A stretch of DNA of 37,180 bases from a virus, in IMG/VR virus record IMGVR_UViG_3300036908_000044, positions 1 to 37,180 of that record, one strand, 5' to 3'. Numbering within the stretch: the stretch's first letter is position 1; the number at the start of each line of letters is the position of its first letter. Below the pieces are notes generated by a model. It was not told the DNA's origin, searched no databases, and was given only the letters and a program-made list of their open reading frames with translations. Made by a program: the position numbers and the translations under genes. Below are positions 5,970 through 37,045 of the stretch, one piece after another.

Positions 5970-6950
5970 TTACTTGATCGGGATGGGAAGGGTGGAAAGC
6001 GTCACCGGAACCGGCAGGCCGCTGGCGTAAGTCTGCAACTGCGCGGCGCTCACCGGCGCATAAGGCAAGCCCGCGATCGTCGGCGCGGCGAAGGCGTTGA
6101 AGTGATAATTCAAGCCGACCGTCACGACATGCTCTTGCGGGCGATACGAGACGAGATAAGTGGACAGCGCGCCCGTGCCGGGAGCATCGCCGTAGGAGAA
6201 CCCGCCAAAGCTGGCCGTCTGTTTCGCCAGCGAGACGAATTTATATTCGGCCTTGACTGACCAGCCCGAGCCGATCAGCGCCTCGACGCCCGCGCCGAGG
6301 TTCCATCCGGCGACGAGCGAAGACGACGCGGCGTTGCCGTAGGTCGCGGCCATAGCCGAGCCGAACGACTGAACGCCGGTATTTTCATGCGCCCAGGCGA
6401 GGCCGCCCTTGCCGTAGACCAGCACCCCCGGCGAGACGAGGTAGCCAAGGCGGACGTCAGCCGTGCCGGCATAATTCCAGGCGCGGCCAATCTGGGCCAC
6501 GGAGGGAGCAACGCCGAGGCCCGGCGTAACGAAGGTCGAGGTTCCCGCAGGCGTCACGTTCGACACCGCGTCGAACTCAGCGCCATAGACGAACGAGCCG
6601 GTATGGAAATTGTAACCGAGCGTTCCGCCCGTCAGAAAGCCGTCGGTGTTCGGCTTGACGGTCGCCGGGACGCCGAGGGCGTAGGCCGTATAAACCGGAT
6701 AGGGGCCGTTAAGGCCGGACTGATAGACGCCGTTTGAGAAGGCTTCCAGATTGCCGACGCCGGTCGAGAACCCGACGCCCGCGAGAATTCCGCCGTAGCC
6801 GCCCGACCACAGATCGACCGGGGCGACCACCAGGAGGGGCGCGGGAGGGGCCTTCGTTGACGGAAGGTCCGCCGCATTGGCCTGGAAGCAGTAGCCGAGG
6901 CCGACCAGCGACGCGAACAGCGCCACCGCGATAAACAAGCGAGTTTTCAT
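5970..6950 (-). CDS. Outer-membrane beta-barrel protein, opacity-porin type (326 aa)
   Basis: A signal peptide (residues 1-26, cleaved after QANA) is followed by a proline-rich linker (ADLPSTKAPPAPLLV) and alternating beta-strands with many Gly, Tyr and Phe residues, for example TLGYNFHTGSFVYGAEF and WSVKAEYKFVSLAK. This is the layout of Rhizobiales opacity-like outer-membrane porins (OMP_b-brl). Near the end VVTVGLNYHFN is a typical barrel strand, but about 45 residues follow it, so the barrel may not close at the C-terminus. It is a cargo gene in a virion/lysis operon. Altering the host surface to block superinfection is inference. It is insulated by a strong terminator downstream. Confidence 0.8.
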   Translation of the reverse strand: MKTRLFIAVALFASLVGLGYCFQANAADLPSTKAPPAPLLVVAPVDLWSGGYGGILAGVGFSTGVGNLEAFSNGVYQSGLNGPYPVYTAYALGVPATVKPNTDGFLTGGTLGYNFHTGSFVYGAEFDAVSNVTPAGTSTFVTPGLGVAPSVAQIGRAWNYAGTADVRLGYLVSPGVLVYGKGGLAWAHENTGVQSFGSAMAATYGNAASSSLVAGWNLGAGVEALIGSGWSVKAEYKFVSLAKQTASFGGFSYGDAPGTGALSTYLVSYRPQEHVVTVGLNYHFNAFAAPTIAGLPYAPVSAAQLQTYASGLPVPVTLSTLPIPIK

Positions 6951-32863: not shown

Positions 32864-33511
32864 TCATGCGGCGGCAGCCGAAGCCAAATGGCCGGCTGGG
32901 TTTAGAACCGTCTTGCGGGAGTTATCCGGCTTGGCCTGGACTGCTTGCGAGACGTGGGAGGCTTCTGCGATCACTCTGGTAAATCGACCGAACAGAATTA
33001 GCTCTAGCTCGAATACCCCCTTCTGGTCAATCCCTCGAATTTGCGCCGCATGGCCCTGGAAGGGGCCTTTTGTGATTTCGACCTGAGAGCCTAGCACCGC
33101 CCAGTCGCGCCAAGTGGTCGAGCGCTGGACAGGTGGGGGCGACGCGCGGAGGAATTCTATTTGCTCGGGAGGGATCGGAACCGGCAAGCGCGAGCCAGTC
33201 GCGCAGACAAAGCCTCGGACGCCAGGGGCGTGCTGGATTTCCTGGAAGATGCACTCGGTAAGCCCGGCGTAAGCGAAAAAATACCGGCCGAAGCGCGGGC
33301 GCGATCTATCAGCGCGAGGCGCGCCCACAGTTTTAACCACGGGCTTTCCCTGTCTCGCCCGTGCGCCGGCACCCTGACGGCCAGCAGCGCGGCGCAGGTC
33401 AAACGGTCGCCAGACGGTAAGCCCAGCCACAGCGAGCCCGAGGCAAGCCTTCGAGTCCTGCCCTTCGACGGATTCGACGCAATACCAAGCTTTCTCGGCC
33501 AGCCCATCCAT
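32864..33511 (-). CDS. NusG/RfaH-like transcription antitermination protein (215 aa)
   Basis: Residues about 5-110 look like a NusG N-terminal (NGN) domain: KAWYCVESVEGQDSK at the start, RPRFGRYFFAYAG in the centre and GVRGFVCATG near the end, with a basic insertion at 40-70. Residues about 140-180 form a KOW domain (VLGSQVEITKGPFQGHAAQI, then LELILFGRFTRVI). NusG-like proteins bind RNA polymerase and alter pausing and termination. The gene stands alone after a candidate promoter and just before the late genes, so it is a good candidate for their specific antiterminator. Confidence 0.78.
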   Translation of the reverse strand: MDGLAEKAWYCVESVEGQDSKACLGLAVAGLTVWRPFDLRRAAGRQGAGARARQGKPVVKTVGAPRADRSRPRFGRYFFAYAGLTECIFQEIQHAPGVRGFVCATGSRLPVPIPPEQIEFLRASPPPVQRSTTWRDWAVLGSQVEITKGPFQGHAAQIRGIDQKGVFELELILFGRFTRVIAEASHVSQAVQAKPDNSRKTVLNPAGHLASAAAA

Positions 33512-33731: not shown

Positions 33732-33974
33732 CTATGCGCGCGGTGGAGGGAACCTAATCTTCCACTCGGGAACCTCCTGCCCCGCCATTCCGCAAAAACC
33801 CTCCCCCGGCACTTCGCGGAATTCGCCCCCATCCCACCGCCACGCCATGCAATCCGACGCGACGCAGCAAGCCGGCGAAGTCACCGCCCCATCTTTCGCC
33901 CGATTACCGCCCTCAGTCCCGAACGGAACTGCGAACGGGCACCATTTTTTCCGCGCTACCGCTTCCGTCATCAT
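33732..33974 (-). CDS. Small Cys-rich conserved phage protein (80 aa)
   Basis: KKWCPFAVPFGTEGGNR near the start, CCVASDCMAWRWDGGEF in the middle and GFCGMAG near the end give about five conserved-looking cysteines, suggesting a zinc- or cluster-binding fold. Similar proteins sit in replication regions of alphaproteobacterial phages. It overlaps the upstream replication gene by ATGA. Function unknown. Confidence 0.68.
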   Translation of the reverse strand: MMTEAVARKKWCPFAVPFGTEGGNRAKDGAVTSPACCVASDCMAWRWDGGEFREVPGEGFCGMAGQEVPEWKIRFPPPRA

Positions 33975-34717
33975 CGGCGTTGATCCTCGATCATTGCTGC
34001 TAATTCGGCCGAGATACGCACAGGGGACTGACCGTGGCCGCCAGCGTTTTCAACGAGCCAGGATTGCGCGGCTTCCTTGGTTTTGTCGGGAGTTTGCGAG
34101 GCTTTCGCCGTCGCACCCACGTTTTTGAACTCATCCACGGGTGAGTTTTTCCGCCCGGAATTGGCTTCGGCGCGCGTCAAAAACCCATATTCCCGCAGCA
34201 TTCCGTTGATCGCCGGGCGCATCGTGTAGGGCAGCATCCCCGGTTCGTTGATGATACGGTTCGGGTCGGCGAGTTGCTCATCGGACCAGCCATTCGTCGA
34301 GGCCTCCCCGAGTGAAAACTTAAAGTTCGCCATTCCTTTGGAATTTGCGACGGTTTCTATGATTCCAGCGACAGACGCGACGTTCGCCCGATGTTCCGGG
34401 GTCTGAATCGCAATCCGCTCTCGATAGGCCCGCGACTCGGCTGCTTCGTCCTGCAATTGCCGCTGTCGTTTGGCGACCATCAGGCGGTCGCTGATGCGTT
34501 TTTCGACCAACGCCCTAACCTCGCCGATCGACGGCGCGAAGGGGCTTCCATCGGGGCGCTTGTGGCGACCGGAGCGCCAATCCCCGAAGGATTTTATCAG
34601 TTCTTCAACGGGCAGGTCTTCGAGGTCCGAGCGGTAAGTTTGTTCCGTCAACGCCGCAGAAATCAAGCTCTCCTGGCGCTTCGGCATCATTCCGAGCATC
34701 GAGCGAAGCGCCGTCAT
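33971..34717 (-). CDS. Replication accessory protein, possible helicase loader (about 248 aa)
   Basis: Residues about 10-95 (MMPKRQESLISAALTEQTYR, LPVEELIKSFGDWRSGRHKR, FAPSIGEVRALVEKRISDRL) resemble phage replication proteins that follow the initiator and recruit the helicase. A charged helix and a C-terminal domain (NGWSDEQLADPNRIINEPGM, TMRPAINGMLREYGF) follow. No Walker A is seen, so it would not be a DnaC-type ATPase. Every plausible ATG (34807, 34717, 34699, 34690, 34687) overlaps the initiator gene by more than 80 bases, so the start is uncertain. A lambda P-like role is inferred from order. Confidence 0.6.
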   Translation of the reverse strand: MTALRSMLGMMPKRQESLISAALTEQTYRSDLEDLPVEELIKSFGDWRSGRHKRPDGSPFAPSIGEVRALVEKRISDRLMVAKRQRQLQDEAAESRAYRERIAIQTPEHRANVASVAGIIETVANSKGMANFKFSLGEASTNGWSDEQLADPNRIINEPGMLPYTMRPAINGMLREYGFLTRAEANSGRKNSPVDEFKNVGATAKASQTPDKTKEAAQSWLVENAGGHGQSPVRISAELAAMIEDQRR

Positions 34718-35540
34718 CCCCTGGTCGTGCTTCCCTCGGTTTTTTTCCCAAGAACACTTCCACGTCAAAAACTGGCTTTCCGTCGTGATTTCCGTTGCAT
34801 TTCGCATAATCTTCTCGCATTTCGTTGACTGCTAACTCCATGTGTCCATTGCGATATTTTTGTCCGTTAACGGGGCTAGCGCGAGCCTTGAATCGCCTGC
34901 TGTTGCGCAGCCAAGTTGACCATGCCAAATGCCAGTTTTTCATAAGGTTGCCGCGCGAGCAGTGATGGTCGCGGAAGGCTCGCCATTCGTCGCGAAACTC
35001 GCTTCCCGACACCCCGGCCTCGGAAGCTAGGCGCTTGTCGGCGTCCGATGGTTGGGCGTCTTCGCGGAGAGACGATTTTCGAACAGCCGGTTTCAGCTTT
35101 GCTTTTGACAACACCAAAGGTGTTGGTTTTATATCTATAGGTTCTGACTGAAAGGAAGAACCATTCGAGCAAACGCGCGCGCGCTCGCGGTTTTCTTTAT
35201 ATGGCTCGGGCTCTGTAACGCTTTTTGGCGTTACATCCCACGCTTCTGTAACGCTTTCGTGCGTTACAGCCGTGGCATCCGACGCCTCTGTAACGCTTTT
35301 TGGCGTTACATCCCACGCTTCTGTAACGCTTTCGTGCGTTACAGCCGTGGCATCTGGAACGCTTTTTGGCGTTACAGGCGTTAGGGACACGCGCTCATTT
35401 TCTCTGAATTTACGAACTCGAGCAGCCGTCACCCCGCGCTGGCGCGCACTTTTATCGACAGCCATTTGCTTAACGACAGCAAGTATCGCATCGGAGGAAT
35501 ATCCGAGCTTTTCCATTGCGGTCATGACGTCGCCGCTCAT
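34605..35540 (-). CDS. Phage replication initiator, lambda O-like organisation (311 aa)
   Basis: Residues 1-52 are a helical N-terminal region ending in a basic helix (GVTAARVRKFRENERVSL), a likely DNA-binding element. Residues 55-110 are repeats of VTPKSVTEA and ATAVTHESVTEAWD encoded by DNA iterons. A linker follows. Residues 180-215 (EFRDEWRAFRDHHCSRGNLM, NWHLAWSTWLRN) match the C-terminal motif common in phage replication proteins. Iterons embedded mid-gene and a putative loader gene downstream mirror lambda O and P. It would bind the iterons and start replication. Its 3' end overlaps the next gene extensively. Confidence 0.75.
   Translation of the reverse strand: MSGDVMTAMEKLGYSSDAILAVVKQMAVDKSARQRGVTAARVRKFRENERVSLTPVTPKSVPDATAVTHESVTEAWDVTPKSVTEASDATAVTHESVTEAWDVTPKSVTEPEPYKENRERARVCSNGSSFQSEPIDIKPTPLVLSKAKLKPAVRKSSLREDAQPSDADKRLASEAGVSGSEFRDEWRAFRDHHCSRGNLMKNWHLAWSTWLRNSRRFKARASPVNGQKYRNGHMELAVNEMREDYAKCNGNHDGKPVFDVEVFLGKKPREARPGDDGASLDARNDAEAPGELDFCGVDGTNLPLGPRRPAR
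35109..35139. other. Hairpin and A+T-rich stretch beside the iterons (possible unwinding element)
   Basis: CAACACC-AAA-GGTGTTG (35109-35125) is a perfect inverted repeat, followed by GTTTTATATCTATAG, one of the few A+T-rich patches in this region. It lies inside the initiator gene about 75 bases from the nearest iteron. In lambda an A+T-rich region beside the iterons is where strands open; the same role here is inference. Confidence 0.4.
35214..35383. other. Putative replication origin: five inverted-repeat iterons
   Basis: Five 22-base units of TGTAACGC-N6-GCGTTACA lie at 35214-35235, 35247-35268, 35289-35310, 35322-35343 and 35355-35376. The last has one mismatch (TGGAACGC), and a half-site GCGTTA follows at 35378-35383. 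The centres alternate TTTTTG and TTTCGT. Start spacings are 33, 42, 33 and 33 bases, and a 75-base unit is duplicated in tandem. All lie within the initiator gene. Position and symmetry match lambda ori within gene O. Confidence 0.75.
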
Positions 35541-35734
35541 GCCGCCCCCTCATGGGTTTTCATCGGCCGGGCGTCCCGCGCCTTTTCAATCCGCGCGATC
35601 AGATATTCCAACCGCTGGACGTGCACCGTTTGCTCAGATTGCGTGGCCTTAGCGCGCCCTTGGACACAGACGATCGCGAACCGCAGGGCCTCGATTTGCG
35701 CTGAATCGCTCAGCTTCTTTTGTGTGGCCGACAT
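35537..35734 (-). CDS. Small helical protein (65 aa)
   Basis: The ATG at 35734 starts MSATQKKLSDSAQIEALRFA. The protein is helical and charged, with a coiled-coil tendency (VQRLEYLIARIEKARDAR). It overlaps the DnaA-like gene by 86 bases and the initiator gene by four. No family recognised. Its place between two replication genes suggests an accessory role. Confidence 0.55.
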   Translation of the reverse strand: MSATQKKLSDSAQIEALRFAIVCVQGRAKATQSEQTVHVQRLEYLIARIEKARDARPMKTHEGAA

Positions 35735-36257
35735 AATCCGGATTCCTTGCGAGGGCCGTTTCGATCGAAAGAAGGTCGAGAAGCGTTTGAGGGTCGCCTG
35801 CCTCGACGAGAAGCGCGACCTTTCGGACCGCCCAAAAAATCGACGAATGGTCGCGGTCGTCAAACAGCACCCCGAGGCGTGGGTAAGAGCCGCCGAGGCG
35901 AACGCGCGCGAGATAGCACGCGGCGACGAGCGCCATTTTCGCGGGGCGGAATCGTCGCCGGGAGAGCATGTCGCCGAGCGTGGCCCCGTAATAGGCGGCG
36001 CACGCCTCTTGGATGCGAAACACAGCGACGCGCGAGGCCGGGTAATATCTGGTCGGGTCCGCGCGTGGGAACGTCGCCGGATCGACCGGGGACCCGACGG
36101 GCGCGGGCGACGCGACAGGCTCATAAACCGGCTTGAGTTCGGTGCGTAACGCGACTGCGAGAGCCGCTTGATTTTCTGCCTTGATCCTAGCCTCGCGCTC
36201 CAACTGCTTTCGATAGAGCGGCCCGCGCCGGTTTATCGAGAGAGAAAGGAGGCTCAT
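35649..36257 (-). CDS. DnaA domain IV-like DNA-binding protein (202 aa)
   Basis: Residues about 78-151 match the DnaA C-terminal (domain IV) helix-turn-helix: FRIQEACAAYYGATLGDMLS, RRRFRPAKMALVAACYLA, then LGVLFDDRDHSSIFWAVRKV with the diagnostic RDHSS at 135-139. In DnaA this domain binds DnaA boxes. The ATPase domain is absent; the N-terminus is helical and basic and the C-terminus is short. The protein may bind host or phage DnaA-box-like sites to control replication. It overlaps the RusA gene by ATGA. Confidence 0.85.
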   Translation of the reverse strand: MSLLSLSINRRGPLYRKQLEREARIKAENQAALAVALRTELKPVYEPVASPAPVGSPVDPATFPRADPTRYYPASRVAVFRIQEACAAYYGATLGDMLSRRRFRPAKMALVAACYLARVRLGGSYPRLGVLFDDRDHSSIFWAVRKVALLVEAGDPQTLLDLLSIETALARNPDYVGHTKEAERFSANRGPAVRDRLCPRAR

Positions 36258-36715
36258 TGCGCCGGCTCCAATTGCTCGATTGAAACCGTTACGCCCGCGA
36301 TCGCGCCAAAGCGCTTTGAGACGTGAAGCTCGCAGATTTGCGCGTCGTCGGCATAGGCGATTTCGTTGAGCGAGTCGGCTATCAGCTTCCCAACATTGTC
36401 AGCATCAGGAACAGAGGTCATGAACCGCCGCAGCCGATCCGCCGCCGTGTAGCTCTTAGGGAAGGCCCAGCAGGCCGCGACCGTCATCCGCAGCGGCCCA
36501 GGGAGAGGCCCAATTCCCGCGAAGGCCCGCGACGCGATCAGTCCCACCGCGCGCATGTAGGAGGCTTGCGAGGCGGGCGTATATCGGCGCTTCCCGTTCG
36601 TGCCGGCGCGTCGGAAGGCGAGCGGCTTTCCAGGGACAAAGAACGAGACGATTTCCCGCTCATCGCGCGGAACGGGAGACGCCCAAGGCGTCAGGAGATT
36701 TGCGCAAGGCTGCAT
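36254..36715 (-). CDS. rusA: RusA-family Holliday junction resolvase (153 aa)
   Basis: Residues 23-50 (VSFFVPGKPLAFRRAGTNGK) and especially 103-135 carry the RusA signature: PDADNVGKLIADSLNEIAYA, then DDAQICELHVSKRFG. The key acidic residues are Asp104, Asp106 and Asp123/124, with Lys110 and Lys134. RusA dimers cut four-way junctions and branched DNA, and phages use them to clean replicated DNA before packaging. It would complement the RecT pathway on the rightward operon. Confidence 0.92.
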   Translation of the reverse strand: MQPCANLLTPWASPVPRDEREIVSFFVPGKPLAFRRAGTNGKRRYTPASQASYMRAVGLIASRAFAGIGPLPGPLRMTVAACWAFPKSYTAADRLRRFMTSVPDADNVGKLIADSLNEIAYADDAQICELHVSKRFGAIAGVTVSIEQLEPAQ

Positions 36716-36975
36716 CAGAGCGGCTCCATTCCAAGAGCCGTGAGATAGACCGACAAAATCTCATTTTCCTCTTGTCGCTTGTGTTCGTCGACGCGGCGCA
36801 GCGCGACGAGCTTGCGAAGGACCTTCACATCGAACCCGCTAAATTTCGCCTCGTCGAACACGCGCTCGATGTCGCCGGAGAGCGCGGCTTTTTCTTCGGA
36901 TAATCTCTCAATGCGGTCCACAAACGCGCGCAGATGCGGGCCGTTCGGGGAATTCAGGCGTGCGTCATCAGACAT
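36715..36975 (-). CDS. gapR: GapR / DUF2312 family DNA-binding protein (86 aa)
   Basis: HLRAFVDRIERLSEEKAALS, then FSGFDVKVLRKLVALRRVDE and EENEILSVYLTALGM are typical of DUF2312/GapR. In Caulobacter GapR encircles overtwisted DNA ahead of forks and stimulates topoisomerases. Phages of alphaproteobacteria also carry copies. The ATG at 36975 was preferred to the one at 36993, as the family's conserved part begins shortly after. Its place in the early operon fits support of phage replication. Confidence 0.9.
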   Translation of the reverse strand: MSDDARLNSPNGPHLRAFVDRIERLSEEKAALSGDIERVFDEAKFSGFDVKVLRKLVALRRVDEHKRQEENEILSVYLTALGMEPL

Positions 36976-37045
36976 TTTGGTTACTCCAAGCATGCGTTTA
37001 GCCAGTGCGCTGAGTGAAGCGCCGTGAAAGATTGATTGAGGGCGA

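Follow-up and report, generated by a model that had tools for sequence, protein, structure and literature searches.

A virus of bacteria appears to keep its replication origin inside the gene for the protein that recognizes it, and a short basic helix encoded just before the sites predicts the DNA word used there, both in this virus and in several other families of phage replication proteins. The window analysed is a virus record of 37,180 bases (IMG/VR IMGVR_UViG_3300036908_000044). Five 22-bp palindromes, four exact and one with a mismatch, lie inside a minus-strand gene for a 311-aa protein and encode its VTPKSVT/VTHESVT linker. We propose, with a probability of about 0.75, that this array is an in-gene origin whose iterons are pairs of GTAACG half-sites, read by the basic helix encoded just upstream (RVRKFR, aa 41-46). 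Among 160 distinct clusters from four viral scans that used no iteron or reader sequence, the motif R[VIAQ]xx[HYFSC][RK] goes with GTAACG (78 of 79) and RKxx[QE]R with GTCACG (22 of 22), while 57 of the 59 clusters with neither motif have neither site; the rules were partly shaped on these data.

The Iteron Array and Its Gene

The features of the region, in window coordinates, are as follows.

34605..35540 (-): initiator-type gene, 311 aa, with N-terminal helices, a putative basic reader helix, an iteron-coded linker and a DnaT-like C-terminal domain
35397..35426 (-): putative reader helix AARVRKFREN (aa 39-48), with the core RVRKFR (aa 41-46) at 35403-35420
35214..35376: five-iteron array TGTAACGC-N6-GCGTTACA, with starts at 35214, 35247, 35289, 35322 and 35355 (spacing 33, 42, 33, 33)
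35211..35279: two-iteron block, first copy (75-nt period)
35286..35354: two-iteron block, second copy
35121..35160: A+T-rich patch, candidate unwinding element, about 50 nt beyond the array in gene sense
35109..35125: hairpin CAACACC-AAA-GGTGTTG
34866..35078 (-): C-terminal DnaT-like domain (aa 155-225)
33971..34807 (-): next gene, 278 aa, unidentified, where some other phages carry the helicase loader

The original prediction described five inverted-repeat iterons in the middle of a replication-protein gene, arranged as a duplicated 75-base block, doubling as linker codons, and flanked by a hairpin and an A+T-rich patch; this observation is confirmed. The sequence TGTAACGC-N6-GCGTTACA occurs exactly at 35214-35235, 35247-35268, 35289-35310 and 35322-35343, and with one mismatch at 35355-35376. 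When three mismatches are allowed, there are 5 matches in the window against 0.11 expected, and none of 100 dinucleotide shuffles reached 5 (the largest number was 2). The stretches 35211-35279 and 35286-35354 are identical over 69 nt and lie 75 nt apart. The copies arose partly by duplication, so they are not five independent events. The hairpin exists (z = -2.95 for the 121-nt stretch; 2 of 200 shuffles fold as well). The A+T-rich patch exists also, with 0.68 A+T at 35121-35160, the highest 40-nt value in the gene, against 0.385 for the window. It starts, however, about 50 nt beyond the array, after a CG-repeat stretch, and the 50 nt right after the last iteron in gene sense are only 0.40 A+T. 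GC skew, which had been suggested as a check on the origin, was uninformative since the cumulative minimum coincides with the contig end.

The neighbours fit a phage replication and recombination region. Just upstream of the initiator gene, at 35649-36257 (-), lies a gene for a 202-aa protein with a DnaA C-terminal DNA-binding domain only (PF08299, E 6e-11), which may take part in initiation. A RusA gene, a GapR-like protein at 36715-36993 (-) (PF10073, E 4e-27) and a NusG-like protein at 32864-33511 (-), which matches a PHROGs antiterminator family, are also present. The gene at 33971-34807 matches no Pfam or NCBIfam family, and its best PHROGs match, of unknown function, has E 0.015, which leaves undecided whether a helicase-loader gene lies next door.

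The Initiator-Type Protein

The 311-aa protein has no Pfam or NCBIfam match (for Pfam, up to E 1, so that the PF09681 domain is absent), and its best PHROGs match has E 0.04. In tblastn searches, residues 146-254 match the C-termini of phage O-like and primosomal-protein-I proteins, with hits in 25 of 50,697 phage records at E up to 0.1, all under 60% identity. An AlphaFold2 model built with 30 sequences shows helices 2-11, 16-34 and 39-48, a stretch under pLDDT 50 at 50-89 within a poorly modelled linker, and a confident C-terminal domain at about 155-225 (pLDDT 93-96 over most blocks). The helix 39-48, AARVRKFREN, is modelled with low confidence (block pLDDT 69 and 59). The best Foldseek match of the C-terminal domain is 6aeq, the DnaT ssDNA-binding domain, with weak statistics (probability 0.89, E 0.18), and no meaningful PDB sequence match was found, so that the DnaT-like assignment could go either way.

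The original interpretation, a lambda-like origin inside an initiator gene, is partly supported. Phage lambda gene O contains its ori iterons in the same place, and the layout found here, with several iterons within the coding sequence of an initiator-type gene and doubling as linker codons, and with a possibly DnaT-like C-terminus, fits that plan. Membership in the lambda O type does not. Lambda O reads its iterons with its N-terminal domain, whereas only about 40 residues precede the putative reader here, and the model, at moderate confidence, shows two helices plus a short basic helix and no winged helix. An A+T-rich element next to the iterons is a further feature of the lambda plan; the patch was examined by composition only, and its distance of about 50 nt from the array, with 0.40 A+T between, does not settle the matter. 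Binding of the protein to the iterons and the start of replication there were not assayed.

A search for the repeat in related genes had been named beforehand as a test of the prediction. No close homologue of the window protein was found in viral contigs, and among 398 Pseudomonadota genomes only 2 matched, by the C-terminal part only. The half-site nevertheless recurs in other initiator families, where it goes with a short basic motif rather than with the N-terminal domain.

Scans for the Iteron

A scan for single iterons returned 18 viral stretches (loci are denoted below by L numbers), of which only L018 is clearly a multi-iteron initiator gene; several are non-coding pairs. A search for two neighbouring iterons found 21 viral loci. 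By our reading, 15 of these are long ORFs with different N-termini, each with a motif like DRVRRFREKQ, KRVAKHRERQQ or IRVANHRANKQ before a linker rich in VT or CNVT. The half-site was written in different frames, so the DNA word rather than the peptide seemed to be kept. By the same reading, 4 of 13 genome loci are reader-type genes. The rest of the viral and genome loci are non-coding arrays, zinc-protein or transporter surroundings, or unrelated proteins such as a PVTTP repeat. Five of the 21 viral loci are non-coding arrays to which we can assign no meaning; in viral contigs, L037 (6594-6957), L044 (682-1049) and L040 (6819-7112) are non-coding arrays of 14-17 GTTACA half-sites, often GTTACAATAA, and are possibly stand-alone origins or regulatory arrays. 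L053 (2540-2793), from a Selenomonadales contig, has 21 GTTACA/TGTAAC half-sites in about 250 bp, largely between genes.

In all, the half-site occurs in several initiator types (PF09681, CBW1004C type, MANSWLRLW type, weak DUF1376-like, and the window), each time with a basic motif just before the linker. One reader, NRLAQQKSRAKRK, looks like the basic region of a eukaryotic bZIP factor. Its linker holds TGTCAATGACA, however, not the AP-1 site that we had guessed, and while bZIP factors have a leucine zipper after the basic region, the reader helix is followed by a disordered linker. The bZIP analogy was therefore dropped.

Pairing of the Reader Motif with the Site Word

To examine the pairing without use of reader or linker sequences, 80 loci each were fetched by the N-domain of family A (PF09681 type), family B (CBW1004C type) and family C (MANSWLRLW type), and by the C-terminal domain with the window first (family D). 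The six query sequences of family A and two of the five of family C came from loci found by iterons. The 320 loci collapse to 35, 59, 21 and 48 protein clusters, 163 in total. With the reader rules R[VIAQ]xx[HYFSC][RK] (A-reader, for the A-site GTAACG) and R[KR]xx[QE]R (C-reader, for the C-site GTCACG), the counts are as follows: A-reader with A-site, 79; A-reader with C-site, 1 (L407, which has more GTCACG than GTAACG); C-reader with C-site, 22; C-reader without site, 5; both rules matched, A-site, 2; no reader but A-site, 2 (L137 and L404); neither and neither, 52. That is, A-readers have the A-site in 79 clusters and lack it in 1, and the other clusters have it in 4 and lack it in 79 (Fisher 2e-40; the second Fisher value for this table was 2e-21). 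Since the rules were shaped by looking at families A to C, the clusters are related and uncorrected for it, and reader and sites are neighbours that may be inherited as a block, these values overstate the evidence. Four of the five C-readers without sites are RRxxQR matches inside another reader class (YQxxRR or YKxxRR), which has its own word; the fifth is L410. With the stricter rule RKxx[QE]R, chosen after seeing this result, and without L352 and L363 (the same genes as L156 and L155) and L105 (the same gene as the iteron-scan locus L033), 160 clusters give A/A 78, A/C 1, C/C 22, none/none 57 and none/A 2. The window gene itself fits the A class, with RVRKFR followed by 9 half-sites.

Without a preset word, the top word in the 150 nt after the reader in families A to C was GTAACG for A-readers (247 against 43.6 expected, 74 genes), GTCACG for C-readers (66 against 20.4, 22 genes), TAACAG for YMxxYR/KR and GACGAT for the YxxxRR class. 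In family B (L155-L234), words such as TACCTA and AGAGAA, from the stretch coding ALPREEKRRE, are far above synonymous expectation and are perhaps part of the origin.

A further test used rules written down before a fifth family (weak DUF1376-like, 35 loci, 30 clusters) was fetched. A-readers with sites numbered 4 and A-readers without sites 2 (L436 and L459, probably a chance motif match); 1 cluster had sites without fitting the rule (L435, with the reader-like RVRRLR), and 23 had neither, so that 27 of 30 clusters were right. One of the four positives is the cluster of the query itself, which came from an iteron scan; without it the score is 26 of 29 clusters but only 3 of 5 readers. The three other positives are 59-64% relatives of the query, and most of the score comes from the negatives. 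In the same set, among initiator-like genes (L439-L464), 21 clusters with an SR[RK]xN-like motif all hold CATATG somewhere in the gene, 20 of them at least twice and often 11-12 bp apart, perhaps a further reader class. This was noticed afterwards; some copies lie before the motif, and the top words by synonymous score were AGCATA and ATATGC, with CATATG not among the ten best.

There are exceptions. Bacillus phage 055SW001 has RVAKYR but no GTAACG in its gene. The HTH-type initiators X29, SI8 and S107 show no reader and no such array. The rep genes of 80alpha, TP901-1 and Tuc2009 have no GTAACG or GTCACG, so these do not test the rule.

INDEPENDENCE

On a tree of family-A N-domains plus eight annotated phages (43 rows), reader and site each change 7 times. 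Seven independent pairs were counted on the best tree and 3 on well-supported branches; in those 3, the site goes with the reader every time, although three pairs cannot reach significance alone. The clearest case is phi11 against 187. Of the first 104 residues 103 agree, as do 297 of the first 312 nt, and then the genes diverge to RQQRYR with CGTAACGTTACCGTAACGTTACGTAACG in phi11 and to RKQKQR with GGTCACGTGACGTCACGTGACAGTCACG in 187. The arrangement of half-sites is nearly the same, and the changed base is A to C in each half-site (GTAACG against GTCACG). In family B, the one RKQKER gene (L171) has 0 GTAACG and 4 GTCACG, while the other 58 clusters have GTAACG.

These swaps bear on the alternative that, as in the classic lambda O plan, the N-terminal domain reads the iterons and the basic motif is an incidental neighbour. 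In its favour, SPP1 gp38 binds repeats in its own gene (PMC6316719), and family A has a winged-helix-like N-domain in an AlphaFold2 model and in Foldseek matches. In that model, one helix, 106-132, carries the reader and is followed by a disordered linker. However, phi11 and 187 share the N-domain but differ in sites, different N-domains share the same site, and the window protein has only two short helices before the reader. We consider this alternative unlikely.

Selection on the DNA Word

Synonymous-codon shuffling of the window gene gives 2.7 GTAACG half-sites on average against 9 observed, and 0.4 TGTAACGC against 9; 0 of 1000 shuffles reach either, so the amino acid sequence alone does not explain the DNA word. 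In each family and reader class tested the sites are in 2.9- to 4.5-fold excess over synonymous shuffles. Fewer than 5% of 200 shuffles reached the observed count in 19 of 19 A-family, 57 of 58 and 1 of 1 B-family, 21 of 21 C-family and 3 of 5 D-family genes. Distances under 45 bp between neighbouring half-sites in A-reader genes peak at 4, 13 and 24 (a few at 36) for one facing orientation, at 7-8 for the other, and at 10-12 for direct pairs (fewer at 22-24 and 33). This is close to helical repeat and only partly in multiples of 3, although many of the genes are relatives of one another. The window has 14 within an iteron and 33 or 42 between iteron starts. A protein-level repeat, in which a VT-rich linker grew by duplication and the palindrome is a by-product, is suggested by the 75-nt duplication in the window, but it is very unlikely given the excess of half-sites, their use of other reading frames elsewhere, and the many spacings (4, 7, 8, 10, 11 and 13 bp) that are not multiples of 3.

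A+T Content Beside the Sites

In the 50 bp after the sites, A+T is 0.75 against 0.63 for the gene in family A (18 genes), 0.57 against 0.46 in B (57), 0.71 against 0.48 in C (21) and 0.59 against 0.43 in D (5). Third-position A+T rises as well, with 0.87 against 0.64, 0.58 against 0.38, 0.78 against 0.48 and 0.62 against 0.41, respectively. This looks like an unwinding element coded as a D/E/K-rich tract; the window, with its patch about 50 nt from the array, differs from these relatives.

An operator or copy-control site, bound by the protein or another regulator to control the operon, is a further alternative, since palindromic arrays are typical of operators. TGTAACG palindromes lie in front of two CGNR zinc-finger genes, L048 (about 6597-6640) and L049 (about 1334-1393), whose ends read RVRAHR, close to the reader motif, and near a small zinc-protein gene. 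L048 and L049 were found by the site, however. Of 30 CGNR loci fetched without it, 15 could be parsed (one of them, L338, a misfit) and 15 were missed by the search expression, and none of the 15 parsed had GTAACG upstream, so the rule is not general for CGNR regulators. Other CGNR genes (L316, L317 and L320) show GTAACC, AACCAT or CAACCA inverted repeats near the gene start, perhaps their own operators or chance. Against an operator are the mid-gene position, the A+T rise beside the sites in relatives, the replication annotations of several relatives, the DnaD- or DnaT-like C-termini, and the genetics for an in-gene origin in another phage initiator, 80alpha ORF20 (PMC5499656), though that one has no reader. 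We regard the operator reading as improbable.

Comparison with Known In-Gene Origins

Phage lambda O and ori-lambda (mentioned in PMC5499656) share with the window the iterons inside the initiator gene, an A+T-rich stretch in the region, and, as inferred for the window, a C-terminal part for helicase recruitment, but the window protein lacks an N-terminal domain like that with which lambda O reads its iterons. SPP1 gp38/oriL has repeats in the initiator gene plus an A+T-rich unwinding element (PMC6316719); its repeats and reading domain were not compared with those described here. In Staphylococcus phage 80alpha (L425), the ORF20 deletion is not complemented in trans, which its authors took to suggest that the origin is embedded in the gene (PMC5499656), and the record annotates a putative origin in it; ORF20 has a weak HTH_36 match, no reader, and no GTAACG or GTCACG. 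The Phage_rep_org_N initiators (PF09681/TIGR01714; phi11 gp15, SM1 gp19 and A500 gp45) have a basic motif of the same class before GTAACG half-sites in the linker, but they carry the PF09681 N-domain (shown for phi11) and other C-termini, and the window protein has neither. Phage CBW1004C-Prop1 gp21 has the reader RVAAHK, a GTAACG array and a C-terminal domain like the window's (44% over 64 residues), with another N-domain and with G instead of T as the base before the core. In-gene origins are thus already known; the literature searched, which covered few subscription journals, yielded nothing on the GTAACG array or on a short helix beside it as the reader, and this is not proof of novelty.

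A Proposed Reader Helix and Origin Module

We propose that the array is the phage's replication origin, placed inside its own initiator gene, and that each 22-bp iteron is a pair of GTAACG half-sites facing each other. In this view, the half-sites are read by the short basic helix at aa 39-48, which lies directly N-terminal to the linker that the iterons encode; helices from several protein copies would load the array, a nearby A+T-rich stretch would melt, and the C-terminal DnaT-like domain would help to bring in the helicase. Our computations establish the sites, their excess over synonymous expectation, the pairing of helix type with site word in several initiator families, the near-helical spacing, and the A+T rise after the sites in relatives, whereas binding by the helix, melting, helicase loading and origin activity are inferences without binding or replication data. 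The claim that an origin lies inside the initiator gene is likely; the stronger claim, a reader helix with a code, has good comparative support and some exceptions.

It is tempting to go further and propose a portable reader-plus-origin module with a simple recognition code, a reading that we judge about as likely as not. Here, a solitary basic helix would read half-sites written in the codons just after it. In R-[2]-x-x-[5]-[6], residue 5 (together with 2) would choose the middle base (H/Y/F/S: GTAACG; Q/E with K at 2: GTCACG), and residue 6 the base before it (K: G or A, T in 0 of 145 in family B; R: T in 4 of 12). Other helix types would use other words (TAACAG, GACGAT, and perhaps CATATG-containing words). 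Phages could then change origin specificity in one small exchange, as phi11 and 187 appear to have done.

If the reading helix lies beside its own sites, the origin word of many uncharacterised phages and prophages could be predicted from about six residues, and origins could be annotated at scale, with natural pairs such as phi11 and 187 making the rule directly testable in vitro. It would also explain how initiators with different N- and C-terminal domains share one origin word.
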